Below are positions 5,671 to 53,500 of a stretch of DNA of 64,000 nt, one piece after another. The position numbers were made by a program, and so were the translations under genes. The DNA is from Brachionus manjavacas. Lineage: Eukaryota > Rotifera > Eurotatoria > Ploima > Brachionidae. Within the stretch, counting starts at the first letter, position 1. The number at the start of each line of letters is the position of its first letter. The notes beneath the pieces were generated by a model. It ran no database searches, had not been told where the DNA came from, and saw nothing but the letters and a program-made list of their open reading frames with translations. The stretch lies in contig JAHQIY010000008.1 in NCBI GenBank assembly GCA_019054805.1, positions 1,287,501 to 1,351,500 on the forward strand. The letters are read 5' to 3'.

Positions 5671-5680
5671 TATAAATAAA
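5671..5680 (+). promoter_or_regulatory. TATA box of the LRR gene
   Basis: TATAAATAAA lies 44 bp before the ATG at 5715, with a pyrimidine-rich initiator-like stretch (TTTTCTTTTCTCTTATTC) about 20-35 bp downstream. It is the clearest core promoter in the window and predicts a very short 5' leader. Confidence 0.65.
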
Positions 5681-5714
5681 AAGAAAAATTTTCTTTTCTC
5701 TTATTCAAATAAAA

Positions 5715-7136
5715 ATGAGTCAGGTGATGCAAAAATTGGTCATTTTCTGGTTTATGGGTGCACTACTAGCTCTAGATGAGTGTTTTTTTGACGGGTGCAG
5801 ATGCGTCAAAAACATCGACTATTCATATGACATCATTTGTGTCAATCAAAAAAATAGCCTGTTTCCCAAACGACTCAAATCCAACATCACCAGAACAATA
5901 AACACATTTCTGCTCAAGCAGTACCTGTTCACAGAAATACCTGATGGTACTTTCGAAGACCTGTCAATCCGGCATTTGATAATAGGAGAAAATCGGCTTA
6001 GAAAAATAGGTGCCGAGACTTTCAAAGGCATCAAGTCTTTATCTCTCCTCAAAATAATAGAAAAAAACTTCGAAACAATTGACTTGGGCGCATTTGATCC
6101 AATTAGTTACTACTTGAGTGAGCTGGGCATTTGGCAGATAAACTACCAAAGTCAAACAATTGACGAGTTTTTTGCCGAGCTGAAAAATCTAAAAAACCTC
6201 AAGACTCTCAGTCTGATGGGATACGGGCTTAAGCAATTTAAGCCAGAGTGGACCAACATTTTTGAATCAATAGTTCATTTAAACCTTGCCTCAAATGAAA
6301 TGAAGTCCATTGAGCCAGACATTTTTAAATCATGCAAACAAATTGAATCGATAAATCTGAGCAATAACTTTATGAGCAATTTGTCATCAATTTTCAGAGC
6401 TCTGGAGCCAGTTAGGTCTCAATTAAGAGAGTTAAAATTAGCCTCGAATCAAATCAGTCAGCTAAAGGACTTTTCAGCATTCCCTAGACTAGAGGCTTTG
6501 GACTTATCAGACAACCAAATAAAGAAAATTCCGAATGGCCTGTTTAATAGCTTGGACAAGCTTAATAGCTTGTACTTGTCATCAAATTTGATTCGGTCCA
6601 TTCCGGACTCTTTGTTCAGTAGTGTGCCGGCACTGAGCATTCTAATGTTGGATAATAATTACTTGAGCTCGGTGCCTAGCGTAAAGAACCTCAAAAATTT
6701 AAAGATATTAGACCTAAGTAATCAAAATAGGAATTTAAAGGAGCTGGCAGACTTTTCGTTCGAGCGTGGAAACTCGACTTGTTGTCTTTATTTAAATTTG
6801 GATGCAAATAGAATTGAAAAATATGGAAAAAAGACATTTTGTTCGAGAGATGGTAGACTGAGTGAAATTAGAAAGCTGGATTTGAGCTATCAATCAATGG
6901 CCAATATGGACCATTGTTTGTTGTCACAAATAAGATCTGACATGGCGAATAAAATCGAGTTTTATGTCACAATAGAGAATGATATTAGCAAAGAGAGTAC
7001 AGTTAGTTGTAACTGTAAGCTAAAGAGCTTCTTGAAGAGTTTAAAAGTTGAGTTCATTGGGCCATGTTCAGATGTGGCCGGTCCATGCAATCAAGATCAA
7101 CAAGCTCAGCAATGTGACAAACAATTTCAATGCTAG
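5715..7136 (+). CDS. secreted leucine-rich-repeat protein, intronless (LRR paralogue 1)
   Basis: 473 aa in one exon. Residues 1-20 are a signal peptide. An LRRNT-like cysteine cap follows (C23-x4-C-x-C30-x11-C), then about twelve LRRs of the LxxLxLxxNxI type (for example LEALDLSDNQIKKIPNGLF, LNSLYLSSNLIRSIPDSLF). The Cys-rich C-terminal cap has CNC and ends in QFQC. No transmembrane segment or GPI signal is visible, so the product should be extracellular; LRR solenoids bind proteins or glycans. It is a clear paralogue of the intronless gene at 35093-36499 (same caps and order). A TATA box sits 44 bp upstream and an AATAAA about 135 bp after the stop. Its ligand is unknown. Confidence 0.88.
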   Translation: MSQVMQKLVIFWFMGALLALDECFFDGCRCVKNIDYSYDIICVNQKNSLFPKRLKSNITRTINTFLLKQYLFTEIPDGTFEDLSIRHLIIGENRLRKIGAETFKGIKSLSLLKIIEKNFETIDLGAFDPISYYLSELGIWQINYQSQTIDEFFAELKNLKNLKTLSLMGYGLKQFKPEWTNIFESIVHLNLASNEMKSIEPDIFKSCKQIESINLSNNFMSNLSSIFRALEPVRSQLRELKLASNQISQLKDFSAFPRLEALDLSDNQIKKIPNGLFNSLDKLNSLYLSSNLIRSIPDSLFSSVPALSILMLDNNYLSSVPSVKNLKNLKILDLSNQNRNLKELADFSFERGNSTCCLYLNLDANRIEKYGKKTFCSRDGRLSEIRKLDLSYQSMANMDHCLLSQIRSDMANKIEFYVTIENDISKESTVSCNCKLKSFLKSLKVEFIGPCSDVAGPCNQDQQAQQCDKQFQC

Positions 7137-14155: not shown

Positions 14156-17100
14156 ATGGAAAAACTTGAAATAGAAGAGAACAGTTTAGCCACGGTTAAA
14201 AACGGGATTTTTATTTCGAAAAAAATTTTGGCCATAATTGGAGTTTCTTTCGGCCTTATTTTGGTGGGCTCAATTTTGGGTACTTATTTTGGAACTATTA
14301 ATTCTGATTCAACAACTGCAGCACCAACTGCAACACTAACTGCAACACCAACTGCAACAGCAACTGCAACACCAACTGCAACACCAACTGCAACACCAAC
14401 TGCAACACTAACTACAACATCGACTACAACATCGACTACAACATCGACTACAACATCGACTACAACACCAACTACAACATCGACTACGACGACATCAACA
14501 ACAACAACTACTTCATGTAAATTTTAAAGATGCAAACGAAAAGACAAATCTTAATTTTATTTTATTTTTAAGCTCCTCCATTGAATTATAGATTGACTCA
14601 GGATTTGAAACCTTTTTATTATGACATCTTTATTCAGCCATTTTTTAGAGTAACTGAAGAGCCACATAATTATTCAGCCAATGTTACAATAGACTTTATA
14701 TGTGAGGTTCAGACAAACAAACTAATTTTGCACATGAAAGATTTGATTTTGGAAAATTCGACACTTATCATAACAAGTTTAAATGACTCATCTTTTGTCG
14801 ACCATAAAATATCTTCGAATTGGACTTATAACAGCATTAACCATTTTTTTACGGCTGAAATTCCTCAACAATTTAAGATTAATCACTCATATAGATTTAG
14901 GGCTTATTTTACTGGATTTAGCACAGATGATGAGCTAGGATTTTACAAAAGCTCTTACAAAGATTCTAACAATCAAACAAAGTGAGAAGATTTAATTTAA
15001 AATTTTTCTAAATTCAAAAAAATTAAGGTGGCTGATTACCTCTCAAATGGAATATATTGAAGCAAGAAAATCGTTCATTTGTTTTGATGAGCCTATTTTT
15101 AAATCAAAATTTAAAATTAGCATTCTGCATGATGAAAGTCTGCACGCAATGTCCAATATGCCCATAAATAAAACAACTCAAATGTATCCATTGTGATAGT
15201 TAATTTTAATGAAAAGAAAATTTTTTTTTTAAGTGGCCCAAGAGATGGCTATAACTGGACTCTGACAGAATTTGAGGAAACAGTTCAAATGTCCACATAT
15301 TTGGTTGCAATTTTAGTTTCAGACTTCAAATGTAAAAGTGGAGTTTCAAGTTCAAGTTATTCAAATGTTGATGTAAAAGTTTGTGCTAGGCCAAATGCTG
15401 AAGATAAACTTGAACTAGCTTTGAACTCTTCGGTCGACATCCTGGGCTTTTTTGAAGAGTATTACCAAGTAAAATATCCTTTGAAAAAATTAGGTAAGAT
15501 TGCTTTTATTGAAAAAGAAAAAATTTAAAAAATGTACATTAAGATCATGCTGGAGTACCAGATTTTAAATATGGTGCAATGGAAAATTGGGGTCTAGCCA
15601 TTTACCGGGAAGTTTACTTTATTTTCGATGAAAAAAGTAGTCAAACTACCGAAATAAATGTCGTGAGAATAATTGCTCATGAAATTTCGCACATGTGGTT
15701 CGGAAATCTTGTCACTCCAAAGTGGTGGGATGATTTGTGGTTGAATGAAGGCTTTGCTCGATTTGCAGAACATGTTGGGTCAGATGCTGTGAAAAAACAC
15801 TGGAGAATGGTAAATAGTTACACTTTTTACTTTAAAAAAGCATAACGTATCAATTACACCTTCAAATATTGAGAATTTATATTTATTTAATGTTCATAGC
15901 ATTTTTAATTTTGCGATAAGAAGTAGGCTCTTTTGTTTATAATTATTGATCTAAATTTTTTAACCAAAAATTAAGATAAAAAAATGAGAAAAAATATTTC
16001 TATTTGAATAAGCTGGTGAGATTAGTCAAAGATTGTGTGAAAGGCAATGTGTAAATAATTTTTCATTTTTATATTTTCATCTATTTTTTGTGAAATAGTT
16101 CAGTAAATTTTTAAAAAAATTTCTGAAATATTGCACATCTTGCTGTGTGAAGTTAATTTCATTTCAATTCAATTAAAACTTGAATTTTTTTCAAAAAGCT
16201 AGATTAGAGTGATCATACCAAAGATGGTCATTAGTCAAATAATTAACTTGAAAATCTGAAAAAGTAAATGTCATCATTGACTTTTGAAAATTTATTCTTG
16301 TTCTGAGATTTTTTTTCAAAATATTTTAATGAAATTTCTGAGGTAAAGACAATGAGAATATTAAAAATATTGAATATTGAAATTATTTAGCCCTATTCCT
16401 TTGTGTACTTTTTGTTCTTAATGGTAATAAAAAAAAGTTTTAATTAATCAATATTTGAAATATCAATTTTAAATTTAACATATATTTTTCTCACCTCCAG
16501 CATACCCGAATCCATAAACCAGGGCTCCGCCCCGGACCCGGTTTAAGTTTTAATATAATGATTAAATTTACCATTAATTACAAAAAGTACAAAAAGGAAC
16601 AGGGTCGAATAAATTTAAATAATGAAAAATTACAAAAAGTAAAAAAAGTTTTTTTAAAAGTCTGATCTCATTGTCTTTCCATCAAATTTCTCAAAAAAAA
16701 TCTTTAACTTTTTGGCATTATTTTATTTATAGTCTTGCTCATTAATTTTATAAATCTAGGGAAAAAAATTTTTTACTGAATTTGACTTTTGACTAACTCT
16801 GAATCATAGTCTAATGAAAAGATCAAAGTTTAAAATTAGAAAATTAAAATCCTATCCCTGTTAAAATTCCTACAATTGAAAATTTTAGATTATGCCCAAT
16901 TATTAAAAAATTATTACCATAAAATTCGGAAAATACAAAAAAAAAAGAAGATAAAATTTATTTGAAATTCTAAGCAAAGCAGCATCATAAAGAAATTTAA
17001 AAAGTTGTTTTTAATAAACAAAAAGAATTAAAAAAAAAAAGGGTTTAACGGGTATTACTGTGATATTGCGACATCTTTGTCGATCATTGGAAAGTTGATC

Positions 17101-20100
17101 AACTTAACCATGAGCGCTTAAGTTAACAAGGAGCATTAATAGCTGCTCCAATGCGTATTACTAGAAGATCGGATAGATGGGCCCAAGGGTACTAATGTAA
17201 ACATTACAATTACTTCATTTTTTATTTAAATTTTACTTTTGATAAAATTACTTTGAAGTAGAAGTGGTAGTAATTTTGCTGCGTAGAAACCCACAAGCTG
17301 GAACGTGGGCCAGAGCGCCAAAAAAAATCGTCCAACTGTAGCAGCCAGAGTACCTGTAATGTTATGAGCCTCTGAGCCTGGGCATCATAACATTTGAACC
17401 TATCCTCTTAACCAATTTTCTCGACTGCCCTTAATAACCGTTCACATGGATAGAAATATATACAAAAAAAATATAAATACAAAAGCCAATAGATAAGATA
17501 CCAAAATATAAAGACAAATGAATAAAAACAATGTATCTTGTGCTGATTTTTGAATTCTTGAAACACCATTAACCAAGCTTTTTCCTATTCTCATCTTCTC
17601 TAAGCCAAAAATCCAATCTTGCTTTGAAAATATTGAGACTACTAGGGTTTACTATACTGTCCGCCAGCTGATTCCAAATTGTGGATACCCTATTAGTGAA
17701 AAAGTGCATTCTTGCACTGACCGAAAGTCGTTGATTTCACGTAAAGGGAAACTTTGTGACCTTAACCGCCTTTTATTGCCTCTTGTTGATGCCGCAGGAA
17801 CATCTTGAATTACGCTTGATGTATGAAAATTTACTTGTATTTAGTTTCATCAAAATTTTTTTTTTGATAATTTTCTTAGAATAAAAACAGAAAAAAAATA
17901 GGTTTTGTTAGATCATTAACTAAATTCTGGTAAAACTGCAAATATAGCATTTAAATAAAGTCGAGTGGAGTGCATTTTTTCGATTTTTCCCTTTTGCAGA
18001 ACTTCCGAAATTTATTTTTTAAAAAACACATTTAACAAAATTTTATTTGTGTAAGCTTGTCCTTAAAAAAATGCCTACAATTAAAAATACTAGGACGGAG
18101 TTTGGGGCTTTATTAAATTTCTAGTTATCATGTTTTAATGCCACTTTAAAAAAAATTTCTATTTTTATTTTAAAGAATGACAGATTGTTTGATTTACTTC
18201 TAAATGTAATTCAATCAGATTCGACTGAAGAGACAAGAGCTGTCTCAACTGATGTAAATACCCCTGAAGAAATTGATGCAAACATTAATCCCACAATTAC
18301 TTATGGAAAGGTAGATTAATTAATTTTTGTTAATTTTCAATTAAAAAATTTTAATCAAGGGTTCAGCTATTGTTAAAATGTTATCTTATATTTTGGGAGA
18401 TGACACATTCAGAAATGGGCTGAAAGTATAATTTAAAAAATAAAAAGACACAAAGCGCTAAATAATTTTTTTAGAATTATTTTGAAACTTTTGAATATCA
18501 AAATGTTGATCAATCTGATTTGTGGAGGATGATGAACGAAGTAACAATTATTTAAGCTTCAAAAAAAATAAATTTAAAAATAATTTTAATTAAGCAAATG
18601 AAACTGGAAAATAAATCACATGGAGTAGATCTTTTACCAGTAATGACATCGTGGACAAAACAAAAGGGTCATCCAGTTGTTACTATAAAACGAATAAATG
18701 ATACACATATTTCTGTGAGGCAGAATAGATTCTTGGTAGATTCCACCGTTTCCAGCTTACAAGAGTATTTTAATTTAGAAAAAAAAACATTTTGTTTGTT
18801 TATAAAAATAAATACTACCTTCAAGCACTTTTTGGCAAATTCCGATTTCTTTTTCTATCGAGGAACTGGGATCAAGTGGCGAATCTTTAACCAACAAAAT
18901 CAACTCCACCAACTTATTTGACAAATTTGTGTGGATAAGCAACAAAACAGGAGAGAGTATTATTCAATTTTGACAAATTTTATTAGAAAATTAATTAAAC
19001 TTCTTAAAGCAATCATTTCCCTTAATAGAACTTTAGCTTCTACTAATTTTCTAATCGCCAATTTGGACATGGCAGTATTTTGCCGAATTAATTATGACGA
19101 AAAAGATTGGAAGATGATAGCCGAACAACTACTCACAAATACTGAAGTAATCAATTTTTAAAATAAAAAAAAAACAAAAAATTATTTAAATTTTTTTTTT
19201 AATCTAGGAATTATCTGCGAGAACCAGGGCTCAATTGATCAGCGATGTTTTCAGTCTTTCCCAAGCTTTGTACATTAGTCCCGAAATAGCTTTAAACCAT
19301 ATTCGATATCTTGAAAACGAACTGGACTATTTACCATGGAGCGTATTTCTAGAAAGAGTTAAATATTTTACAGGCCAATTGGACTCGACTGAAATTTATA
19401 ATCCTTTCAAAAAATATATTCAAAAATTAGTAAAGCCATACTACCAAAAATTAGGCTGGATTGATAATCCACTTACAGATGATTGGAATGATAGGTTCTT
19501 TTAGACTTTGGTTAAATTTGTAGTATAGATGTATTCACCTTTGCATTCTGTACATTTCCTTTTGGGTTCAATATTTTTTTAATTACAGGAAGAAGTATTG
19601 GTGATAATACAGGAGTCATCTATACTAATATCGGTTTATTTTAGGCGGATCTGAATTTTAATTTAAAAGATTTAATAATAACAATAGTTTATTAAATTAA
19701 TAAATTAACTAGCATAAGTAAAAAATTAGACATTTTTTACAACGAATTGTACCATTTTATTAAGTTTTTCTATTATAATTAGAGTCTAAATTAACATGAA
19801 AGCAAAAGTCAGAATAAGGAAGGACTTTAGAAAACTTTGAGTAAATTATTACTCGCATTTTTGTTCAATTGTTAAACAATTTTATTTAAAACTAAAAGCA
19901 CCAAACTAGACATAATGACTCGTTTTAAAAGTTATTACTTTGTAAAATTACTTTAATTTTTTTTAGATATTTTGGATTAAAAAAAAATTAAAATGCTCGA
20001 TGCTTTTAGTGTTAATTGAAAATTATTGATCCGTAAAGACTTGTCTTTAAAGACATAGTTAGATTAAATTTGTATATTATATAAAGTTTTAGAAAAAAAA

Positions 20101-23100
20101 ATTGAGAATTTTGGTTCATATTTAGTTTAAAAAATTTATTTTTTAGAATCCATCAATCAAACATTGACCAGAATCTTAAAATTCATGATATATTTGATTT
20201 TTGCTAGAATTTAGAAAGTTTTTTTCAATATTCTTTACAAAATTCTTAATGATGCTTAAGATTCTGTTAATTTGTGAACAAGAGCCCGAAAAGAATAACT
20301 TGTTTATATTCTTAAAAAAAATTTTTTTAACATCATTTAAAAGCGAATTTCTTTTATATCTTTAATTCCTTAGATTTATTTTTCTAAAAAAAAAGTACTG
20401 TAAATGTAGCGGTTTATTTTTCGTTTAAAATTTAATTAGTGAATTTTAGGTAAAGACAATGAATAATTAAAATTTAAAATATTTTGAATTTGGTTTTGTT
20501 TTTTTTGTAATATAAGACTTTTTGAATATTTCAGAGCGTCTTTTTTTCAGAAAAAAAGCACGGAGTAAATACTAAAAGTCCTTTTTTATAAAAAAAATAT
20601 TACACATTTTTATCTTAAAATTTAGTTTCATTCAGAGTTGGATAAAAGTCAAAAGCGATTTTTTTACAAATTTCCTTACAAATAGTATTTAAAAATGTAA
20701 AAAATACATGTTACAAAAGTTCTAAAATTTTAAATACTAAAAAGCAGATCTGCACAAAATAGAGTCGATTTTTAATAATGGAAATTTTTCAAAAAATTTT
20801 TTTTTAGAGTAGTGAGAAATAGGTTGGTAGAATTTGCATGTCAAGTTGAACTTACTGATTGTTTGAGCCAGGCTCGATCTATTTATAATGATTTCATTGA
20901 TTCTGGAATTCAAATTAAGTATAAAATAAAATTTCTAAAATTTCTGTTTTCACCTTTTTTAACTTTAAAAACGTTTAGTTTGCCATCATTTTTATACAGA
21001 GTGGCGTTTTGTTCATCAATAGAACAAGGAAACGATGCTGATTTTGAAAAATTATTCGAAAAAACTAAAAATACTAATAGTGATTTAAAATCAGCCATGT
21101 CATATGGCTTGTCATGCAGCAAATCAACAGCTAATTTAAATAAATACTTAAATGACCAAATGAACTCTAACTCAATAATAGCTGCTATTCGAAATGTGCT
21201 ATCTAAACCATCGGGTGTATATGTAGCGTGGAACTTTTTGAAACAAAATTGGCAAAACATCTACAAGTTAGCTGAAATAATTAAATAAATAGTTAAATTA
21301 TTAAACTGTGATTGTAAAAGGGATGGCTCGGCTATTTCAGGAATCGTTTCAGATTTGGTAAAAAAACTCAAAACGCAAAGCGACTTGAATGATGTAAATT
21401 AATAAGATTACAAAATTTAATTAGAATAAAATATTTTTTTTAGATAGAATCATTTTTCGGTGACAAAAATTTGACCGAAGCAGACAGAAATAGCTTGAAG
21501 GTTGCTAAAAATCAATTACTGTCAAACATTAAATGGTTTAGTCAAGAGTTTAACTCTATCAAAAATTGGACTTTAGAATTAAATATTGGTAAAATTAGGC
21601 AATGTAAAGTGTATTTAAATTGGTTAATTTTTTTTGTCAGGAAATGAAGTCAATTACCGCTTGCCTACTAATTTGATACCGAATTCCTATGATATAAAAA
21701 TACGACCTTACATCGGAGATTCATGGCAAGAGAAAGCGTTCACATTTGACGGATCGATAAGCATTAACTTCACATGCGCTGAACCAACCAAAAAAATCAT
21801 TTTTCATGCCATCGATCTGGATTTGGACACTGACACTTTTACAATTCAATCAACAGATCAAATGGAAGTAGAAAAAATGTACACCGAGGACAAAATAACC
21901 AATTTTATAGAGCTTAATTTGAAAAAAGAGTGCCAAAAGGGTTCCGATTATGTTTTGAAAATGAATTACACAGGTTCGATAATCAAAAATTTGTATGGCT
22001 TTTACAGAAGTTCGTACAAAAATGAACTAGATCAAACAGAATAGTAATTTTTATTTAGTTTGTGTTTAAAGTTTAAAAAATATTTGCTAATAAAATAGTT
22101 TGGCTACGACTCATTTTCAACCAACAGATGCCAGAAGAGCGTAAGTTTAAGAAAAATAAAAGAAAAAAATATTAAGAATTTTTTGCTTTAAGCTTTCCAT
22201 GTTTCGACGAGCCAGCACTAAAAGCTTCCTTTAAATTGACAATTATGAGACACCAAAATTTTTCTAGTTCTATATTCAATACTCCGTTGACTAAATCGAG
22301 CCCTAATGGAGATTGGTTTGAAGACGAATTTGCCGAAACGCCAAAAATGTCCACTTATTTAGTTGCTTTTGTGGTTTCTAACTTTAAAAATATAACAAAT
22401 AAAACATCAAAAGGCATTGAAGTAGAAGTTTTTGGAAGACCTGAAAAAATTGATAATGGCGAAGGAGACTTTTCTCTGAGAGAAACTCAATTAATTTTGG
22501 ATTTTTTCGAAAATTATTTTAATCTTTCTTATCCTTTGGCTAAATCAAGTAAGTTTTATCATTTATTTTGAAAATTTTAGTAAAAAATATCATGCATTAT
22601 TGATACAAGTGAAATTTGGAACAAAAACACACTATAAAAAAAAATATTTTGCTAAGCTATTAGATAATTTTCTTCTTTGTTTGACTAAAATCTTGAGAGT
22701 ATCATTACCTTTATAGTTTCAAAACCTTTAGATGACATTTTTTTTGACGCTAAAATGCTTGGATCACTAATTTCTAAAATGTTATTTTTTTAAAAAAAGA
22801 AACCAAGTATTTTTCAAATGTAAACCTTTGGTTTAGGTGGTAGGTTAATGATTTTCTCAAAATTAAATCAAATGAAGAAATAAATCAGGTTAATTTTAAG
22901 TGATGCCATGATTCCAAATACCCAATGTATTAAATTGTCAATTCTTCAAATTAAAAATTATAAGACACTCGTATGACCATGTTTAAGTGGATGAATTTAT
23001 CAAAAATTAATGAAATTCATATTCCTCTTTCTGCAACTGCTGAATATTTTCCAAAGTAGTCTAAATTTGGTCACAGAGCTGATAAAGCATTCGAATTATT

Positions 23101-26100
23101 TTTTTTGAAAAAAAAATAAATTAAAAGTTTAAGATTTTTGAAAAATCGTGGTTAATTCTAGAGGCTTTTAATTCAATTCTTTTTTTAAAGTATCATTATT
23201 ATTATTAGATTATCTGCAAGGGTTTAACCGCGGAATTAAGCACTTAGCTATGGCATATTTAAACTTGATAAAAATTTAAATTAGTTTTTGAATAAATGTC
23301 AAAATTTTTTTTGAAACCATTCACATTCGATTGATGTTCCAGTATGGGGCCACTCGATTTGTAAAAAAATTATGCCTTGCTTGACATGACTTAACAGCTT
23401 GTCTGCATAGCGTGTCTTGGCCTCTTGTTTAACCTGCTGGTTCTGTTGCGAATGAGCTTGGAGGTAGAGCGATTGGATGGAACAACTCGATCATGTCGAT
23501 CCTGTTTTACTTTTTTTCAAGTTAAAAAAATTGTATTAAGTCACCTCAATCCGGCGTTCTTCAAGGCTAGTCAGTCCCAATACTCTGAGCCTTTCTTCTT
23601 CACTTTTGTTCCGGATAGATGGTACAAATTTGTTAGCTCTCTTTTGGACTTTTTCAAGTCTCTTTATGTCATGTTTCTTGTATGGACTCCAAGCCACTGA
23701 TCCATACTCTAATATTGGTCTAACAAATGAGATGAAGAGTAATCTAAATGTTCTGATATCCCAATTTGTAAACGAATTCTTAATTTTTACAAGAATAAAA
23801 TTGTGGATTATTCTCGATAAATAGTTGTCTCATTTCAAATCATCAAAAATTTAAATTCTAAATAACTAATCATTTCTCAATTATATCATTACTTAAGTTA
23901 TAAATTTTCATTTAAGTTAAATTAAAAGATCAATCTTTCCTACCAAAATTTTTGAAATAAAATTCGAAAAAAACTTCAGTAAATCAGTTTTAACGGAAGT
24001 TGCTTTTATAAATGAATTGAGGAATATTTTTTTTAAACCTAAATGGTGAAACAGTCCAAATATTAAAAAAAAAAAACTATTTTTAAATTATCTAATTTTT
24101 GTAAATAAAGATAACATTTAAAATTATTTAAATTTTAGAAGACTCGTGAAGTTTTAAGGACTTCTATTACCATTACCATTAAAAATTAAATATAAGTAAA
24201 TGAAATTATTTTTCCTTATTTATTTTCAAAAATTTAATCTAAATTTTGTAAAGAATTAAATTTTTCAATATAAAGCCAAAAAAAAAATACCATAAAGACT
24301 TGAGATGTTTTTTTGACTTGTCAAGCATTCTGTATTCTTTTGCAGTTAATTTTTCTTTTTAGTCATCAATTTTGGAACAATTTTTTCTAATTCTGAATTT
24401 TAATTTAACAAAATAAATTCTACATGATCAAAATGTCCATAAGAAAATCTTGCTTCAAAGGCCTCCTTTTTTTCATTGTAATTTAAAATAAAAATTTTTT
24501 AACTTCTCGTGCCTTATCGATAAAAAAATTTAGATCTTCAAGTGTTAAACTTATTCAAAGATTAATTTCAATATCTAAAGATATGCTCTTTGAATTTGAA
24601 TTGGTCATCAACTTTATGATGCCTATTTATTTCTATTAAATTTTCTTAGTAAACTTTTCTTTGGTTGGAAAAAAAATGTATCATTCATATTTAGTCCCTT
24701 CAAAATCTAATATAATAACTCAATTAGATCGCATTATTCTTAATAATTATAAAAATTAATTAAAAAATCTTAAAAATATTATTATTAACAATTTTTACAA
24801 CCAATTTTAAATATATAGAAAAACTAAAGAAATTTTTTATTTTTTACTTAAATTCACAATAAAGTCAAAATTTAAAATTTTTTATAAAAGGCCAAATCGG
24901 TGTTCCTGATTTTAATGCGGGTGGTAAGTTAATTTTTTTTGTAATTTACATGAAATTTTTAATTCTGACTGTGTTCAGCTATGGAAAATTGGGGTGCTGT
25001 TATATACCGTGAGACAGCTTTATTTTACAATCCAAAGACTGATGCACTTGCTAACAAACAAAGGGTTTCATCTGTTGTTTCTCATGAACTTGCTCATCAA
25101 TGGGTTAGTTAAAATAATAAAAATTTTATTAATTAATTTTTTTTTTAAATAGTTTGGAAATTTAGTTACACCGGACTGGTGGAATGATATTTGGCTAAAC
25201 GAAGGATTTGCATCATGGGTAGAATATCTAGGTGTCAATTATACACATCCCGAATGGAATTTCGTAATTTATTCTAAATTAAATAGATGCAACAGTTTTA
25301 GATTTTTTTTAAAAGCTTGATTTGTTTTATGTTCAAAAATTGAAAGTAATGGAATTAGACAGTCTTGAATCGAGTCATTCTGTTAGTTTTGATGTAAATG
25401 ACCCTGGTGAAATAAATTCTCTCTTTGACAAAATTTCTTATGACAAAGTAAAAAAATTTTAGATTGAAATTTTGAGTTTTTTTTTTCAAATATTTTTTTC
25501 TTAGGGATCGAGTATTATTAGAATGATGAATTCTTTTCTCACTGAAAAAACATTTAGAAATGGTGTTTCGGTAAAATGATAGATTTAAAAAAAAAATTTT
25601 CTTAAATTTTTTTTAGAATTACTTGAAAGATTTTGCATACAAAAACGCAAAACAAGATGATCTTTGGCAATACTTGACTAATCAATCTTATGTTGATGGA
25701 AGTCTAGATCAAAATTTGAATGTAAAAGATATTATGGATACTTGGACCCTGAAAAAAGGCTATCCATATGTTAAAGTCGAGAGGAAATATGCGGAAAAAG
25801 AAATGATCTTGACTCAAAAATGGTTTTTGTTGAATCCTGCAAGCAAAATTAAGGATACAGAAGAGTACAATAATTACAAATGGTATATTCCTTTTACTTT
25901 TACGAGTCAAGAGGACCCAATTTTTGATTTTGAAAAAAAACCTACTTGGTTGGAGCCGGATCAAAAAGAAGGTATTTTTTTACTTAAAATAAATGAAAAC
26001 AATTAATTTTTAATTAAAAATTTTTTAATTTTTTTTAAATAAATTTTATTTAAGTAAAAGTATCGACGCAGAATATTGATGATGAATCTTGGGTTATTGG

Positions 26101-29084
26101 TAATTTAAAGCATTCAGCATTCATGAGAGTCAATTATGATCAGCACAATTGGGATTTACTAATTGAACAGCTTAATGCGAATCATACAGTTATCGACCCT
26201 ATAAACAGAGCAACTCTTCTTGATGATTCTTTTAACTTAGGAAGAGCGGAAATAATAGATCAGCTTTTATTTTTAAGAATAACTCAATACCTAGTAAATG
26301 AAAAAGAAAACTTGCCATTTGTTCCAGCTTTTATAGGCCTTGATTACATTGGAAATATGATAGCAAATGATTTTTTTGCTTACAACGACTACAAAGTAGT
26401 TTTTAAAATATTTTGATCAAAATTTTAATTTTAACATTTTTAATTTTTCAGAATTATATAATTAATTTAATGAACACCACTTATCAGAGTCTAGGATGGG
26501 ATGATGTTTCAGATGATTTAATGTAAATTTTTTATCATTTACTTGTTTTTTTTAGTCCTGCTGTGATAGTTTTTTCCATGGTTAAGGATAAAGAATTAAA
26601 ATAATGCAACTAAAACTAATGTTAAAAAAATTATCAATAATTATTAAACTAAAAATATAATAGCAATCGAGAAGTTAATTTGGGTAAAAGTTAAAAAATT
26701 TTACCACTATTTTATTTAAAATTTTCGGGCCCAAATTAATGAAAAAACATTAATTTATTTTTCGTAATTTTTGGCTTAATATTCAAACACCAAATTTTTT
26801 TTTTTACTTTAAGTACTAAAAGGCTCCAAAAGACCCCTTTAAATAATATGCTTTTTTGATAGCATAAGTTACCATAATTATTCAAATATGTTAAAAAATA
26901 TATACTGATTATTATATTTTAAAAATATATGTCTCTTATTAATTTTCATTTTGATTTTTAAAATAATTACGTTTATTTTTAAGTTTAATTTTAAAATTAT
27001 TCATAAAAAAAATTAGACAAAAATACCGGAAAAATTATTTTTAAATTCGTATCACTTGTTCTTAACAATTTTTACAGGTTCATTTAAAAACCTTCTCCCC
27101 GATACAAATACCACATCTACTGCTTTCGGGTGACAATTGGTACAATTCAATATAAATTTATCATCGAAAAGTCCAGTATCATGAAAAATTCTTAGAGTTT
27201 GGTCTCATTTATTTACTTGTAGCATAGCTTGTTGTTCAAACTTTCTCATCTAAAATTTATCGTTTTCCTAAGATTTGCCACTTCTCGGTTCCCAGTCAAA
27301 CCCATTACGTTCTATTTTTCGAATTTTTTTCAATATAAGTTGCTTATTCTTCTTCAGGTTGTTGATTACCTAAGTATTCATCTTATTTAAATTTGGCATT
27401 AGGTTGATAAGGTGTTTTCATTTTTTCTTCTAAATCATTATCAAAGTTTTGATAATTCTCATAATCATTATAATTATCATCAGAGACTTCTTGTTGGGTA
27501 TAATCCGCATTTCTAAGAAGTTCAAGAACTTGTAAGGTAGCTTTCATCAAGACTTTGTTCAAAAAGTTATTGATTATTAGAGGAATTATTGAAATGTAGT
27601 AGAGTTTGGAATTAAAAGGATTATTAGCCATGTCTTTACTTTATTTTACCAATAATAATACAATATTTTGGAGGGTCCAAAAAAAAACCTTTTTGGGTTT
27701 TACTTAAATTTTTTTATCCATGAAAATAAAAATATTTTGAATTAATTAATTATAAAATTTTTTGGGTTTTGATGGAAAAAAAGATCGTCAAAAATAATTA
27801 AATTTATTGAGCAATTAGCAAAATAAGAACCAAAAAGGGTTTTGGGTGTTAAAGAGGTGTATTTGGTGAGGTTAAAATACCCGATTTTTTACTGAAAAAC
27901 TACTAAAAATAAATCTTTAATTAATATTTATGTTTTCATTTTCAATATTAAAGTTCAGCTTCAAAACAAAAACTTGTTCCAAGTCTGAGACTTAATCCGT
28001 TTTGAAAATCAAACAAGTATTGCCACTTTTTTAGGTACTGAAAAAAGTATTACAATTTAAGTAATTTGGTTTTCAAAAAAGTCTATAGTTAATCCAGCTG
28101 TGTTATAGGATCAATAGTCTTTTTTGTTTCTGAATGAGATGATTTACTAAGAAGCCATTTCTCAATTTAGAAGAAATTTTAATTTTAAAATTTGAAAATA
28201 ATTTTTGACTAAAAATTCTCTTTTGAAATGAAGAATTAATGATAAAAAATTGCTTCAAAATTCATAATTTTGGTCAAAATTTATTTATTACTTGAAGAAT
28301 TTATTTAAATTTTTTAATTATTTTCAAAATTTTTTTCAAGTGATCTGCAAATTTCGACATTACAGTTGATGTGCAGTTTCGGATTTGAAGATTGCATTAC
28401 TGAAGCCCGATCTCGTTTTGACGATTGGATTAATAACGATATTGCGTAATTAGATTTTTAATTATTAATTATTTTATTAATTTAAATTTAATTTCTTTTA
28501 GACTTCCGAGCAATTTTAAAATTTTAATCTATTCAACAGTGGTCAAGTACGGAGATGAAGAAACTTGGCTAAATTTGTATCAAAAAGCAATAGGCATTTC
28601 TGATAACACTGAAAAACTAAGAATTTTCAGAGGTCTAGCTTCTTCGAGAGAAGCTTCTTTGCTGTCAATGTAATTAATTTTAATTTTGAATAATAAAGCA
28701 ATAAAAAATTTCTTAAGAATACTGAATTCGGCATCCGATAAGAACATCATAAGATCTCAAGATGAAACATCAGTAATTTCTTATGTAGCGAGTAGTCCTT
28801 TAGGCAGAAAACTAGCCTTTGACCATTTGGAAGACAATTGGGATGAACTTTTCGAAAGACATGGTGATGTTTCATTTACACTTTCAAGCTTGATCGACTC
28901 GGTCACAAAATATTTGAACACAAATTCCTATTTGCTGAGATTATTAAGCTTTGCAGAACGAAATTCCAATTTGGGTGTAACTAAGAAAGCCTTTGAACAA
29001 GCGATCGAGAATGTACAATTCAATACCAGGTGGACCATGAAAAATCTAAGTCCAATTAAAGAATGGCTGAATTCTAATCTTTAA
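14156..29084 (+). CDS. type II membrane protein with two tandem M1 aminopeptidase N domains (30 exons)
   Basis: Exons: 14156-14516, 14573-14981, 15028-15192, 15234-15493, 15544-15809, 18176-18310, 18360-18425, 18475-18540, 18595-18764, 18826-18956, 19010-19146, 19208-19494, 20808-20918, 20979-21266, 21321-21393, 21444-21588, 21641-22043, 22099-22140, 22193-22548, 24891-24923, 24979-25103, 25153-25263, 25316-25447, 25505-25570, 25617-25971, 26055-26395, 26452-26522, 28341-28445, 28502-28669, 28718-29084. All junctions are GT-AG with matching phases; 1914 aa. Residues 1-23 are cytoplasmic, 24-46 a membrane anchor, 50-120 a Thr/Pro/Ala stalk. M1 domain 1 (about 122-1022) has GAMEN 409-413, HEISH 444-448 and Glu467. 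Domain 2 (about 1024-1914) has GAMEN 1301-1305, HELAH 1337-1341 and Glu1360. Both keep the TYGKG/SYDKG tyrosine, so both look like active zinc aminopeptidases of the cell surface, cutting N-terminal residues from peptides. The linker ([17 protein letters not shown]) is split by a 52-bp phase-1 intron. Four large introns hold transposon relics. Splitting into two genes is the alternative, but exon 17 has no start or anchor of its own. Confidence 0.88.
14310..14513 (+). repeat. 12-bp coding minisatellite (mucin-like stalk)
   Basis: Tandem 12-bp units (ACACCAACTGCA, then ACATCGACTACA) encode (TPTA)n and (TSTT)n in the first exon of the aminopeptidase gene. This is a probable O-glycosylated stalk between membrane anchor and catalytic domains. 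Copy number is likely to vary between individuals. Confidence 0.8.
16490..16690. repeat. dispersed repeat with GC-rich core, copy 1
   Basis: Shares GGGCTCCGCCCCGGACCC, then TTTAATATAAT, ACAAAAAGTACAAAAA and TCTCATTGTCTTTCCA with the segment at 42240-42400 (CGCTTCGCCCCGGACCCC, TTTAATATAAT, TCTCAGTGTCCTTCCA). Non-coding; the element type is unknown. Confidence 0.65.
17040..17820 (-). pseudogene. LINE relic: C-terminus of ORF2 plus 3' UTR
   Basis: On the minus strand 17815-17570 encodes the typical LINE C-terminus: one frame change, then [18 protein letters not shown] and [14 protein letters not shown]-richer non-coding stretch down to about 17040 is the likely 3' UTR. The F.NR....WN.LP..V....S...FK..LD pattern is characteristic of Jockey/CR1-clade elements. 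It is inserted antisense in an aminopeptidase intron. Confidence 0.8.
19495..20807 (+). other. 1.3-kb intron of the aminopeptidase gene
   Basis: The donor is the weak GTTCTT, but phase and protein continuity (WNDR|VVRNRL) support it. It contains a small piggyBac-type MITE at 19890-20011. A CAGAGTTG-like end near 20635 may be a trace of MITE family B. Confidence 0.7.
19890..20011. mobile_element. short diverged piggyBac-type MITE
   Basis: 122 bp between TTAA tetranucleotides, with inverted ends ACTAAAAGCACC and (reverse complement) CACTAAAAGCATC. It is related to the ends of the larger elements at 31003 and 49683. A TTAA target and CACTA-AGCACC ends suggest piggyBac-driven mobility. Confidence 0.6.
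23195..23795 (-). pseudogene. LINE relic: end of RT/thumb region and 3' tail
   Basis: Minus strand from about 23790: [20 protein letters not shown] then [34 protein letters not shown] and SLEERRI. This is the conserved region after the RT domain in Jockey/CR1-like LINEs. Frameshifts and stops follow, and the element ends in an (ATT/TAA)n run at 23195-23215. It is visibly less AT-rich than the host intron. Confidence 0.85.
24568..24640 (-). pseudogene. C-terminal relic of an unidentified repeated ORF, copy 2
   Basis: The minus-strand frame ends [15 protein letters not shown]-stop, matching the relic at 4874-4990. Confidence 0.4.
26523..28340 (+). other. 1.8-kb intron of the aminopeptidase gene
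   Basis: The acceptor is TTTTTTCAAG at 28331-28340; only this choice keeps the frame into the exon reading [12 protein letters not shown]. The intron contains a minus-strand coding relic (27057-27631) and otherwise AT-rich DNA. Confidence 0.75.
27057..27631 (-). pseudogene. decayed minus-strand ORF nested in an aminopeptidase intron
   Basis: Begins with an 82-codon frame at 27631 ([18 protein letters not shown], later [15 protein letters not shown]). After frame changes it continues as [33 protein letters not shown] and [12 protein letters not shown], ending [18 protein letters not shown]-stop at 27057. About three stops interrupt it. Residue composition is protein-like throughout, with CTNCHP near the end. 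I do not recognise it; a retrocopy or a transposon/virus-derived gene are both possible. Confidence 0.45.
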
Positions 29085-29399
29085 CTAAACAATTTTAACT
29101 AGAAAAAAGACAAAATTAATTAATAAATTTAAAAAATAAATCATTTTAAAAATTTAAAATTTTTTTATAGATTTCCCAACCAAAACACAAAAAATTGCTA
29201 TAATTTCTTATCTAGAGTCAAAGTTTGCTAATGAAGATCTTTGTTAAAAGCTTTTCAAAAAGTTTATTAAATTTTTAAAGAAATTGCAAGTAAAAAAAAC
29301 GCTAAAAGAGATTTGTTCAAATTTTAGTTTAACCTTAAATTTTTGGTTTTCTGAAGTCAATGTCCCAGGCAAAAAAAAGCCATTGCAATAAGTTGGCAC

Positions 29400-30590
29400 T
29401 TGAAATTGAATCAATGGCTTAAAGAAACAAGTCAAGGACGGTGTAATCAGCTTAGTATGTCAAGTAAATTTTTTATACAAGTAATTCTGGGGAGACTAGT
29501 TAAGACCGTAGACTATCAGCTCTCAGAGATACAAGGTGGATTTCGATCTGGACTGAGTTGCGCAGACCAAATATTTACGCTGAGAAGAGTCATGGAAGTG
29601 TCGCGCCGACAAAGGGTACCAATACATATGTGCTTTGTCGATTTTAAAGCGGCATATGACTCAGTTGACAGAAAATCGCTCATGTTAGTATTGGAAAAGT
29701 ATGGCGTGTCAACGAAGTTACAGAACCTTATAAGAGCCTCGTATAAAGATACGGAGGCCGTAGTGCGTGTGTGTGTGGTGAGATGACTGGCTGGTTTAGG
29801 GAAAATGAAAAGGCTCTGCCCGAATGTATGAAACGGCTTGATGTGACCATGCTAAAGTGGGGACTTAAGATCAACATCAAGAAGACAAAAAAGATGTTAA
29901 TTAATGTCAAAGAAGCAGTACACGAGACTCTGAGAATCAGGGGTGAAGAGGTTGAACAAGTTAACCATTTTATATACCTGGGATGTCGTGTGACAAACGA
30001 TTCGAAATCTAGTATCGAGATCCAGAGAAGAATAGGTCTTGGAGCTCACAGATTTCAGTGCTTGAAATCGATATGGAATAAAGCGGAAATTAGTATTAGA
30101 ACTAAAAGTAAGATTTATTTAGCTACAGTAAAGGCAACTGCCATTTACGGTGCAGAGTCGTGGACATGCAGTCCTTCTGACTATCAAAAACTAAGTAGTT
30201 TTAACAGAAGACGTTTGATGAAGATAGTGGGTCCTCGAAGAATTGGATTAACAGAACAAAAACTCTAAAGTCAAACGAAAACTGTTCCGCTTGATAAAAT
30301 CGTCAGAACAATAAGGCTCAGATGGGCAGGACATGTACGACAAATGTTGGACACATGTTTACCAAAGATTGTTCTATTTGGTGATGTTTTAGGTGGAAAG
30401 CGTGGAAAAGGAAGACCAGAAAGAGAGTGGACGGACCGCTTAAAAGAGGATTGTGAGAGAGCTGGAATTTTCTGGACTAAATGAGTGAATGAATCGAAGA
30501 ATCGCAAGAAATGGCGCATCAAAATCTCGTCCCTAACCTTAAACAGATGAGGATAAAGGACCCCTTATTATTATTATTGTTATTATAAGT
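29400..30590 (+). pseudogene. LINE relic (RTE/CR1-like RT), internally deleted, with (TTA)n tail
   Basis: 29400-29760 encodes RT blocks (VSSKFFIQVILGRL-like start, IQGGFRSGLSCADQIFTLRR, then MCFVDFKAAYDSVDRKSL). A deletion near 29770 removes the Y/FADD region. 29771-30530 continues with the thumb and C-terminal part (LDVTMLKWGLKINIKKTK, FIYLGCRV, ATAIYGAESWTC, RLRWAGHVRQM, GKRGKGRPEREWTDRLKED). It ends in a TTATTATTATTATT tail near 30590. It cannot make an active RT. It lies 316 bp past the aminopeptidase stop, same strand. Confidence 0.88.
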
Positions 30591-35092: not shown

Positions 35093-36499
35093 TTAATCAC
35101 ACTTAAATTTTAGATCACATTTATTTTCTTCAAAATAAACTCCATCGCAAACCGTTTGATTACAATTTGGTAGACTGTATATACCAATCTCAAAAAAACT
35201 AGCAGCTTTCAAAATTTCACAATTACATTTGCTTACTTCTTCGATCTTAGATTTTTCCGAGTCGATTTTAATAATCATTTTAGCTGATCTACTTGATTTG
35301 AATTGACTAAAAATACACACATCCATACCGTTCAGAGTGCTAAGAGACAAGTCCAAAGTACCTATTTGACTCTCTGTCGAGTGTCTTGAACAAAAACTTT
35401 TCGGCTCAAATTCTAACTCGTTTAAATTCAAATAAAGAGTCAAAAGATTGCCAAAGTCAAAGTTTCGCTCAAAAGCATACTCGCCAATTTTCACCAAATT
35501 GCCATTTTGACTTGACAAGTCCAATATTTTAAGCCGCATCAAAGAACTAATGTTTGGACAATTAACCAAAAAATTGTTGTTCAACAGCAACACCATCAAG
35601 TCTCTCATATCTAAAAATAAATTTTGGTCCAAATTTTTAATTCTATTGCTGCTAAGGTACAAATGGGTCAATTTGGTCAAATTGCGGAACATATATTTTG
35701 ACAAAATTGATATTTTATTGCTGGACAGGTCTAGATACTCTAAATTGGACAATTTGCTCAAACTTGTCAAATTTTTTATTTGATTTTTTTTTAACTTGAG
35801 CTCTTTTAAATTTTCACCAGACTCAATTGCGGACAATAAATTGGTCAAATTGGAAACAAAATTTTGGCTTAAATCAATGGATATAAGCTTTGAACTGAAC
35901 ACATTTGAGTCCAGGAGAGATAAACGATTGGAAGCGAGGCTCAGGTAGCTTAGGCTTTCCAGAGACTCGGTCCAATTCGTCTCGAATTTGTCCAGTTTCA
36001 AATTATTCAATTTGAGAGTGCGTAGATTCTTTAGTTGTCTAAGTTCCATGTTTATTTTGTTTAGCAGAGAAATGTTGGTGTTTGTGAGGCCGAATTCTGT
36101 CAGTGACTCATGCAGAGCTTTTAAAGAGCCCGACTCTACTTCTTCGAGATTATTTTCTATCATGTGAAGCATTGAGATCGACTCAGCTCCCTCAAAAGCT
36201 CCTTTGGTCAGTATTTTTAGATTATTTTGACCAATTATTAAATATTTGATATCTAGATGTCTAAAAGCCTGATCTGGTATTTTTCCGATGTTGTACTTGT
36301 TCATTAGGAAAACATTGATGGGCTTGGATTGGTTGGCCAGGCGGCTTGGAAAGTCAGAATTGAAGCGGTCCAAATCCGGTATGCATCTGATGTCAATGGT
36401 TTCATCGCTGTTGTTAATGCAGCGACATCGCTCGAATACACAACTGGACCCAGTGTTGGCAAAGTTGGTCGCTAGAGCTATTATAAAGAGGAAAGACAT
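35093..36499 (-). CDS. secreted leucine-rich-repeat protein, intronless (LRR paralogue 2)
   Basis: 468 aa in a single exon. A signal peptide (MSFLFIIALATNFANTGSS) is followed by the same LRRNT pattern as the gene at 5715 (C-x4-C-x-C), about twelve LRRs (for example LEYLDLSSNKISILSKYMF, LTHLYLSSNRIKNL), and a Cys-rich C-cap with CNC ending KFKCD. The shared order, the matching FERCRC/FFDGCRC caps and the intronless structure show that the two are duplicates, now in opposite orientation 28 kb apart. No anchor is visible, so it should be extracellular. Only a weak TATA-like TTTATTTTAAAA lies about 25-35 bp upstream. The role is unknown. Confidence 0.88.
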   Translation of the reverse strand: MSFLFIIALATNFANTGSSCVFERCRCINNSDETIDIRCIPDLDRFNSDFPSRLANQSKPINVFLMNKYNIGKIPDQAFRHLDIKYLIIGQNNLKILTKGAFEGAESISMLHMIENNLEEVESGSLKALHESLTEFGLTNTNISLLNKINMELRQLKNLRTLKLNNLKLDKFETNWTESLESLSYLSLASNRLSLLDSNVFSSKLISIDLSQNFVSNLTNLLSAIESGENLKELKLKKNQIKNLTSLSKLSNLEYLDLSSNKISILSKYMFRNLTKLTHLYLSSNRIKNLDQNLFLDMRDLMVLLLNNNFLVNCPNISSLMRLKILDLSSQNGNLVKIGEYAFERNFDFGNLLTLYLNLNELEFEPKSFCSRHSTESQIGTLDLSLSTLNGMDVCIFSQFKSSRSAKMIIKIDSEKSKIEEVSKCNCEILKAASFFEIGIYSLPNCNQTVCDGVYFEENKCDLKFKCD

Positions 36500-36894
36500 T
36501 TTTTTGATTTGAGTTTTTAGTATTTTAAAATAAAGTTTTTTGTCGTCTAATTTAAAGTAAGTTGGGACAATTTAAAGCAAAATGAAGATTAAAAATGCTA
36601 ATCAAAAGGATAAAATTAGTTCTAGTTCATTTTTTTTAATTTTATTAAATTTTTTTTTGTCATGGATGATTTTTAAATAGCAAATTGATAAGAATTCCCT
36701 AATGGCTAAAAAGCGAATCGAATTCTAATGTCAAAAAAGCTAGACTGTGAAAATTGGGTCCTAAGCTTGTCACTTAAACAACCATTTAAGAAAAGCAAAT
36801 TTAAATCGTTCCAAGCAGAGCAGTTGTTTTTTTAGAACAAATTAAATATTAAATTTATTTTTTCATGCATTAATTTATAGAAGACTGTTATTTT
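36500..36894. other. upstream region of LRR paralogue 2
   Basis: No coding signal. It is separated from the next feature by AT-rich DNA only; no strong core promoter motif is seen. Confidence 0.35.
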
Positions 36895-50500: not shown

Positions 50501-53500
50501 CATTTACCACATCTTTGGGAAGTTTTTTCCATCCATTCACGACTCTATTTGTAAAAAAGTTAAATCTAGGAAGACAATTCTTTACATGTCCACGCGTTAA
50601 ACAATAGCTATTTCTCCTTAATTCATATCTTCGGCTCCCGGATCTTGTGTTTAGACTGTAATTGATTCCTTTTTTAAAATAAAATATTAAAATTAATCTT
50701 TGGTTTAATTTAAATAATTTTAATGTAACGTGCTTTACTATTTATGTAGATTTATATAAAAATGTAAAAAAAATTATCTTTCTCAAATTTCCATTTATAA
50801 AATCGATTTTTGATTCATTAAACTGATATTTTTTAAACTTTATTTTTATCTTATTACTTATTTGGAATTTAATAATAATAATAGTGATAAGCTGCAGCAG
50901 GAAATCAGTAAGTACATTTAAGTAAAATATGAGATTTAAATCGATTATGGTAAATTGAGAAAGATTAATTTTTTAAATATAAGTCTACATAACATGTAAA
51001 TCATGTTACATTAATCTTAATATTTAAAACCCAAATGTGTGAAAAAAAGTAAAATTTTCATGCATATTATTACGATAACTAACTTTAATATTTGAATATA
51101 GTGCTTTTAAAATTGTCTTAATCCATTTTTTCAGATTACATAATATTTTTGCAACCTAAAAATAAATTTTATTTAAAAAATTAAGAAAAGAAACAAACAT
51201 TCAAATTCATTGAAATTCATTCATTCAAGTTTTTCTTACAAGAAATGTTGTTTGTACAAGATGTCACAAAAAGTTAGAATCAAGTTGAAAAAAAAAAAAA
51301 TAATTATCTAATTAATGTTTAAGTCCCATGGACAAATTGAAAAAAAAAAAAAAAAAAGGACTGTTAAATATCCATTTTACAATTAAGTAAAAAAATCAGT
51401 TTGTTACCAAAAAAATGATTAAGATTAATCAATATACAATATTCTATTAAATAAAAATAGTATTTTATCGAGTCAGTTAGTCCAGGGTTGCTACATTCGA
51501 GGCAACATTAAATCAAAAGAAAACTGAATGCTAAATCGTATTTAGTACAATTTATATGAGTCAGATCTTCTACTTTTGATAACTGTTTAATAAAAGAAGT
51601 ATTCTCTCTAATAAATATCTTATAAACTTTCCTTAAGTATTCAAAAGCGTTTTAGCACAATTGGTTATTGAAAATTTGTTTGACAAAGAATATTTTATGC
51701 CTATAATAAATTTGTCTAATCCAGTTTTAGTGCTTTGTTCAAGGGTTTTGTTTTTGTAAATTTAGTGAGTCCAATAAATCGTTTTAATAAAATATTTTGC
51801 CGTATATCAAATTCCTTTAAACTCTTTTCATTAATGAAGATATTATCTAAATTATATCTAAAGATTGATTGAGAGAACTGCTTGTATAAGAAAGCTTTAG
51901 TTTCTGGGTTCATTAATTTTGGTTTGCATCCAATACTATTTAGAGAGTAAAAACTTTTTCAATTTTTTTCATCTTATTTTCCACAAAATCCTTAATTGAT
52001 TTTTGATTTCCAATGAGTAGGTCAAGATAAATCAAATTTTGTACTTTTAGAATTGTAGAGCCATTTAATTTAAATTCTGTTTTATAACTTGTACTTTTTT
52101 TTCGAATAGGATTGATGCCGATTTAGAGGCATTAAATTCGATTTTCCAGTTCTTGGCATAATTTTACAAGTTCTTGGTAAAATTTTGGTGTGTTTTTCGG
52201 ATGGTGATAGTAAGACTATATCATCGCAGTAGGCAAGAATCGAAGAATTTATTTCACCAATCTTTTCACCAACTTTTAAATCAGTACATACAGATAGCAT
52301 TTGATCGATGAAAAATTAAATAAGTACGGAGATAATATTCCACCTTGTTTGACTCCTTCTGTTATTGGGAAAGGATTACTCTTTTCTTCACCAACTTTGA
52401 TGATCACCTTAGAAATTTCATAATATCTGTATAATATTCTCCACATATAATTATTCATTTTTTCAAATAATTTGAAGAAAAGCCCAGCACGCCATAATTT
52501 ATCAAATGCTTTACTAGCATCAAGACTTAACGAGATCCTCCTTGGCAATAATAATTGACTACTTCATTAGCTAAAAAATAGCAATGTTTACATGAGCTCT
52601 TTTTTTGTATCCAAATTGATTGCTTTGAATGCCATCAAAAACATTCGTTTTGGCCAAGATAAGAGACTCAAAAATAGTTGATAAACATGTAGACACCGTG
52701 TTAGGTCTCCAATCTGAAGGATCTTTTGATAATCCATTTTTTGGGATAGGTTTTAATAAGGAAATATCGAAATTCTTTGGTAGATAGCTAATTTTAATAG
52801 AAAAATTAAAGAACCATTCAAGCAAAATTAGGAGATTTGTTGATGATCCATATATGAAAAATCATTGCATATTAGATCGTGACCAGGACTTTTCCTACGA
52901 CCAAGTTCTTTAAGTACATCCTTAATTTCTTCAAACGTGAAATAAATAGGTGATTCATCCAGATTATCTAAACTTTTGTTATAATTTTTAACCTCCAATT
53001 CTACATTCTCCTGTTCTCTGTTATTGGGCCTATCATAATGAGAAAATAATCTTTTATAATAGTCTTCAAATTGATTAATGTTTGATTAATGAAATAATGA
53101 ACAAAAAACAACCAGATTAAAAAAAAAGTCTGACTCTAACTTTTTGCGACATACTGTACAGAAATATTCATTAAATCATTTAATGAACACTTATGAAAAA
53201 AATTTTTTAAAATCAATTTTTAATAAGAATTTTTCAATATAATAAATAAAATAAATCAATCAATTAAATAATCAGTACTAATTTATTTTTCTTTTATTTT
53301 TATTATTCTGGCAGTGGAGCAACAGGTAAAACCTTTGAATTGATCATCAATTTCAAGATGCCATGCCATTTTCATACAAAATTTAAAAATAATCAATTGT
53401 GGCAGATTATTTTAATTAAAGAATTAAATTAAATTTTAACTAAAATTTTTGTATTAAGACCATGGAGCTGATGATGACTTGAAGCTTTTAAATGTAATAG

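Follow-up and report, generated by a model that had tools for sequence, protein, structure and literature searches.

Does the aminopeptidase locus in this 64,000-nucleotide stretch of DNA (the window) hold one gene whose protein carries two complete M1 units, or two adjacent single-unit genes, and, if the units are joined, would both of them work as enzymes? A preliminary description, made from the letters of the window, had read the locus as a single gene with two tandem M1 aminopeptidase domains on a mucin-like stalk, both of them expected to be catalytic.

Gene model and domain order

The gene was reconstructed exon by exon, by listing the open frames and scoring GT-AG joints by open frame, and all 29 introns are therefore GT-AG by construction. 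The model spans 14156–29084 on the forward strand and comprises 30 exons with a coding sequence of 5745 nt, encoding 1914 amino acids followed by a stop codon, and thus arrives independently at the 1914 codons without internal stop that had been counted before. Most introns are short (25 of the 29 measure 41–83 bp), and the other four measure 1.3–2.4 kb; the GC content is 33.9% in the coding sequence compared with 26.5% in the window. Genome size, base composition, and introns of about 50 bp would be in keeping with a monogonont rotifer; three table rows of PMC11954553 give assembly GC contents of 25.5–27.6%. The features are collected in Table 1.

Table 1. Coordinates of features of the predicted double aminopeptidase gene and of the motif-less M1 paralogs
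Feature	Position	Strand	Basis
Exon 1: cytosolic N terminus, type II signal anchor (~aa 22–46), Thr-rich mucin-like stalk	14156..14516	+	hydropathy, exon model
12-bp tandem repeat encoding the Thr-rich stalk	14313..14511	+	TRF, 16.6 copies, 87% matches
Unit 1 (aa ~121–1023), exons 2–16: Peptidase_M1_N, Peptidase_M1, ERAP1_C	14573..21588	+	exon model, Pfam
GAMEN exopeptidase motif, unit 1 (aa 409–413)	15573..15587	+	exon model
HEISH-X18-E zinc motif, unit 1 (aa 444–467)	15678..15749	+	exon model, alignment
Intron 5, within unit 1, 2366 bp	15810..18175	+	exon model
Catalytic Tyr, unit 1 (Y530, in TITYGKG)	18302..18304	+	exon model, alignment
Intron 16, 52 bp, phase 1, joining the units; ninth of the 29 introns in a simple splice-signal score	21589..21640	+	
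Unit 2 (aa ~1024–1914), exons 17–30: Peptidase_M1_N, Peptidase_M1, ERAP1_C, stop	21641..29084	+	exon model, Pfam
Intron 19, 2342 bp	22549..24890	+	exon model
GAMEN, unit 2 (aa 1301–1305), interrupted by intron 20	24920..24989	+	exon model
HELAH-X18-E zinc motif, unit 2 (aa 1337–1360), interrupted by intron 21	25083..25203	+	exon model, alignment
Catalytic Tyr, unit 2 (Y1422, in KISYDKG)	25439..25441	+	exon model, alignment
Poly(A)-like AATAAA words at 29122 and 29135, 3' of the stop codon	29122..29140	+	word scan
Motif-less M1 paralogs C5, C19, C12a and C12b	C5:4134761-4138218; C19:1180609-1184849; C12:1761596-1757106; C12:2979657-2968433		alignment

The chain runs from a single membrane anchor through a Thr-rich stalk to unit 1 and then unit 2, each unit with the domains M1_N, M1, and ERAP1_C. 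The highest 19-residue hydropathy in the whole 1914-residue protein is 2.5, from aa 24, and all 12 of the most hydrophobic 19-residue stretches in the entire protein start at aa 17–30, as befits an N-terminal type II anchor. The mucin-like stalk was borne out as a segment (aa 48–122) behind this one hydrophobic stretch, in which 43 Thr, 10 Ser, and 7 Pro make up most of the 75 residues. Because a 12-bp tandem repeat encodes the stalk, its length may vary among individuals. A comparable Thr run is absent from the N-terminal stretches read of two related genes considered below, on contig C7 and at locus C8b.

All three Pfam domains are present in both halves. For unit 1, the E-values are 1.5e-67 (Peptidase_M1), 1.5e-63 (ERAP1_C), and 5.5e-36 (Peptidase_M1_N), all passing the Pfam cut-offs, and the best values of the two halves are 1.2e-78, 7.3e-66, and 1.2e-40, respectively; such scores exclude chance as the source of the predicted domains. 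The two units are 33% identical.

The joint between the units

The linking intron, described earlier as 52 bp long and in phase 1, falls at 21589–21640 in our independent model, and a linker of ∼10 residues (TLELNIGNEV) lies between the final conserved Trp in unit 1 and NYRLP. Exon 17 had been said to lack a start codon; indeed, no in-frame Met precedes M1_N, and the first Met (aa 1098) lies 75 residues into the exon. Direct splicing of exon 1 to exon 17, which would put this anchor on unit 2 without unit 1, was rejected because it creates a TGA at the joint. Retention of intron 16 would lead to a stop at 21645–21647 and so to a unit-1-only form.

These features bear on the reading that two adjacent single-unit genes have been wrongly joined, with unit 1 ending at about 21588–21647 and unit 2 having its own start. 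Annotation often fuses neighboring M1 genes wrongly, and poly(A)-like words do occur around the joint, at 21425, 21528, and 21578 and also at 22089. However, the absence of a start in exon 17 before the domain argues against separate genes, as does a scan of 14601–21640 for an alternative anchor exon able to feed exon 17 (an ATG exon of 25 aa or more with a phase-1 donor and a 19-residue hydropathy above 1.9), which found none. The locus might also be transcribed as a polycistron, with trans-splicing of the second cistron at the acceptor of exon 17, given that spliced-leader trans-splicing occurs in rotifers and that the gap between the units is only 52 bp. The lack of an in-frame start ahead of the domain again speaks against it, and the one leader sequence tried, from a bdelloid, had no match in the genome at two or fewer mismatches, which is weak evidence. 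Both readings are further opposed by a paralog of the gene.

A second double gene on contig C7

Contig C7 of the same genome carries a second double M1 gene, at ∼2307658–2317482. Spliced alignment of the 1914-residue protein to this locus recovered 1910 residues with a score of 3777; the start is the ATG at 2307658, chosen by eye, and the spliced aligner had placed the first exon at 2306421. This and the other paralog models come from our own aligner, which reproduced unit 2 exactly with unit 2 as the query (a self-test only), and local errors are probable in the models of divergent paralogs.

The exon at 2312497–2313053 of C7 lies in one open frame of 185 codons that runs from the C-terminal helices of unit 1 to NYRLPNDIEPFFYDI of unit 2. 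At the joint there is no splice call and no acceptor, and both M1 units lie within the one exon. The first 50 residues of this exon matched the unit-1 tail of the window gene with a score of 70 and the tail of the solved aminopeptidase N (APN) chain 6buy, which we take to be pig APN, with a score of 69, in each case with 0 of 2000 shuffles scoring as high; in the latter alignment, KANINWISKNFENLKIWF faces KANIKWVKENKEVVLNWF, the common end of these enzymes. Compared with 17 units, the C7 tail was equaled by 0 of 2000 shuffles in three cases, by 1–4 in four, and by 136–1359 in ten, the last group including C8b, itself a near relative (235 of 2000). As judged from these alignments, the C7 unit-1 tail is recognized by nearer relatives and by APN, not by all units. 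Pfam did not recognize the unit-1 tail in this exon; the second part of the exon is Peptidase_M1_N (Pfam, 2.6e-17). Further, C7 unit 1 scored 1674 against window unit 1 versus 1343 against window unit 2, C7 unit 2 scored 2053 against window unit 2 versus 1184 against window unit 1, and the N-terminal anchor of C7 resembles that of the window gene (score 54; the best of 2000 shuffles reached 53).

The claim of a single gene with two M1 domains thus gains a counterpart in which both units are joined inside one exon, and we consider it very probable that the window holds one gene with two joined M1 units. Given the sister double gene, a gene-prediction error is very unlikely to have produced the joining. 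The C7 paralog, which spans both units in one exon, speaks against two wrongly joined genes, a reading to which we give very little credence, and its lack of an acceptor at the joint likewise speaks against trans-splicing, which appears more improbable still. Because the C7 joint is intronless, intron 16 must either be a newcomer to the window gene or have disappeared from the C7 gene.

M1 loci elsewhere in the genome

Profile searches of the genome (114 Mb, 61 contigs) found at least 17 Peptidase_M1 loci with at least 19 units; these counts are lower bounds because only the best candidates were scored and matches were made exon by exon. At 2 of the 17 loci, the window gene and C7, a second unit follows the first closely on the same strand, and the remaining 15 show a single unit, so that the statement that one M1 domain is the usual layout holds within this genome. 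One further locus (C4:8343655-8344415) has ERAP1_C only. In the same genome, matches to Peptidase_M2, the family of angiotensin-converting enzyme (ACE), fall into three consecutive groups that share a strand (C13:2074630-2095922).

Among the single-unit loci, C8b (C8:1258311-1249721, reverse strand) is a unit-2-type gene ∼43 kb upstream of the window gene and on the opposite strand, scoring 2310 against unit 2 versus 1118 against unit 1. Its anchor resembles exon 1 of the window gene (score 64, 0 of 2000 shuffles as high), and C8b may be a double gene that has lost unit 1. In four other single-unit paralogs (C5, C19, C12a, and C12b; rough models), GAMEN and HExxH are both lost and E411 is kept. 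These four form one clade (support 100/100) and, by their sequences, are apparently catalytically dead aminopeptidase-like proteins. Two more M1 paralogs, C11a and C11b, are partly degenerate.

Active sites and substrate pocket

Each of the elements expected of family M1, namely HExxH-X18-E, GxMEN, and the catalytic Tyr, occurs in both units, at the positions given in Table 1, in agreement with the earlier statement that each half retains them. We mapped residues onto the 6buy chain with human APN numbering. On this map, G352, A353, M354, E355, N356, H388, E389, H392, E411, E418, and Y477 are kept in both units. Positions N350 and F472 of the human enzyme presumably belong to the substrate (S1) pocket of APN. 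Both are retained in unit 2; unit 1 has K at N350, I/N at F472, and Met in place of the Gln that follows HExxH (HELAHQW). At the position of Gln213, Glu is found in unit 1 and in both C7 units, and two more columns, labeled R442 and R381 with some uncertainty, are variable among these units. C7 unit 1 has S at N350 and Q at E418 and retains F472.

The expectation that both units are catalytic therefore stands at the level of the motifs, the zinc ligands, GAMEN, and Tyr being intact, and is weakened for unit 1 by the changed pocket and by the Met that replaces Gln. We regard activity of both units as likely. Because its pocket residues are altered, unit 1 may have a different specificity or a lower activity than standard APN. 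Alternatively, the protein could be fused as described with unit 1 serving as a non-catalytic regulatory or binding module and unit 2 alone at work. The substitutions at N350 and F472, the Q at E418 in C7 unit 1, and the longer branch of unit 1 (0.88 versus 0.51) would fit such a module, as would the presence in the genome of the four M1 paralogs that lack the zinc motif, but both unit 1 and C7 unit 1 retain the zinc ligands, GAMEN, and the catalytic Tyr, and we judge the reading unlikely. Our preferred reading of unit 1 is a putative working site whose preference has changed. There is an appreciable probability that the site is weak or dead, which is plausible in a genome where other M1 paralogs have lost their catalytic motifs.

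History of the two units

A maximum-likelihood tree was built from 18 rows, comprising 17 of the 19 M1 units found and the 6buy chain; C21 and C15, which had no ERAP1_C match and aligned poorly, were left out. The C7 unit-1 row was taken from a stretch cut at 2312300, and it therefore ends in residues other than the true tail. In this tree of domain 1 against domain 2, the domains pair with those of C7 in matching order: window unit 1 joins C7 unit 1 (100/100), and window unit 2 joins C8b and C7 unit 2 (100/100), within which window unit 2 pairs with C8b (99/98). A grouping of window unit 2 with C7 unit 2 to the exclusion of C8b is disfavored (p-AU 0.018, in a test named after the tree had been seen). 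Because each unit groups with its C7 counterpart, the predicted pair was joined before the double gene was copied and the window and C7 genes split.

A recent origin of unit 2 by duplication of unit 1 within this gene was rejected, since forcing the two window units together as sisters gives p-AU 1.3e-88. In the free tree, the solved APN stands beside domain 1 (D1) at 27/0; the AU test does not reject a clade of D1 with domain 2 (D2; p-AU 0.22), nor does it reject a grouping of APN with D2 (p-AU 0.40). Units 1 and 2 have nine intron positions in common, out of the 15 that lie within or border unit 1 and the 14 that do so for unit 2, with the boundary intron counted. Three of the nine are also present in the single-unit paralog C1, and the sharing may therefore be ancestral.

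We posit that the double gene arose from two single-unit genes in tandem. The upstream unit would have ceased to end at its own stop codon and run on, either through splicing or by direct read-through, into the first domain-coding exon of the unit behind it, whose anchor exon would have been dropped at the joining. The double gene would later have been copied to give the window gene and the C7 gene, and at C8b unit 1 would have been deleted between phase-1 introns.

Relation to APN and other known systems

Among the best 60 of 120 matches, the solved chains closest to either unit are aminopeptidases or APN (9.7e-186 for unit 2 and 3.2e-139 for unit 1). Within the same best 60 of 120, unit 2 scored 622.9 bits with APN, 540.9 with ENPEP, 505.9 with LNPEP, 501.4 with ERAP1, and 483.3 with PSA, and unit 1 scored 468.7 with APN, 407.1 with ENPEP, 391.5 with ERAP2, 364.8 with ERAP1, 350.7 with LNPEP, and 286.5 with PSA. 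Four NCBIfam equivalog models matched unit 1, all below their cut-offs, the best being pepN_strep_liv at 203.2 of the 591.2 bits required, in a library that is bacterial and archaeal. The predicted protein shares with APN (CD13/ANPEP) the order M1_N/M1/ERAP1_C, GAMEN, HExxH-X18-E, and the catalytic Tyr, and APN likewise has a type II anchor and a stalk. It differs in having two units on one anchor, whereas the APN subgroup has one unit per chain; the aminopeptidase and APN chains at ranks 1–26 among the best 60 of 120 measure 900–979 aa, except for one 1184-aa antibody-chain fusion construct. On these matches, membership in M1 and APN is secure, and the fused layout is a variant.

Somatic ACE (family M2), the textbook ectopeptidase with two active sites, is a membrane ectoenzyme with two homologous zinc peptidase units in tandem whose specificities have diverged, and the comparison drawn in the preliminary description fits the layout. 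Family and activity are unrelated, however, and ACE is a type I protein with a C-terminal anchor, unlike the type II protein predicted here.

Invertebrate predictions with two Peptidase_M1 domains are presumably present in public databases, C. elegans T16G12.1 being an example. A published paper names T16G12.1 among the C. elegans M1 paralogs, and another treats the H11 aminopeptidases with one set of domains. Within the open-access literature searched, no paper on a two-M1 protein was recognizable by its title and the start of its abstract.

Proposed function

The product would be a type II membrane ectoenzyme of family M1, similar to APN/CD13, with two catalytic units arranged one after the other on a shared anchor and stalk, presumably at the cell surface. 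It would remove N-terminal residues from extracellular peptides in a zinc-dependent manner, with two sites per chain. Unit 1 probably differs in preference from unit 2, and the standard APN pocket of unit 2 together with the changed pocket of unit 1 could endow a single chain with two specificities, much like the two domains of ACE. A wider scenario, which we put forward tentatively, is a lineage-specific double APN whose units pair in cis as a built-in APN homodimer, with unit 1 re-tuned and the arrangement preserved when the gene was duplicated and, in one case, returned to a single unit. If so, one double-APN ectoenzyme would trim successive or different residues, and the natural series of two double genes and one gene with unit 2 alone would bear on why peptidases fuse and on the role of a second site. 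For annotation, the locus is also a caution that such genes should not be split as a matter of course.

Neighborhood of the gene

Searching the window for Rfam families and tRNA genes gave no hits. RVT_1 reverse-transcriptase fragments lie directly downstream of the gene (29355–29783, forward strand) and at 52279–52563 (reverse strand), and a further reverse-transcriptase-like fragment was noted by eye in intron 19 (23539–23829, reverse strand), with no Pfam hit at E 0.01. The aminopeptidase gene is flanked by two leucine-rich-repeat open frames, at 5676–7133 (forward strand, 486 aa) and 35096–36571 (reverse strand, 492 aa), which run in opposite directions, are of similar length, and by eye begin similarly.
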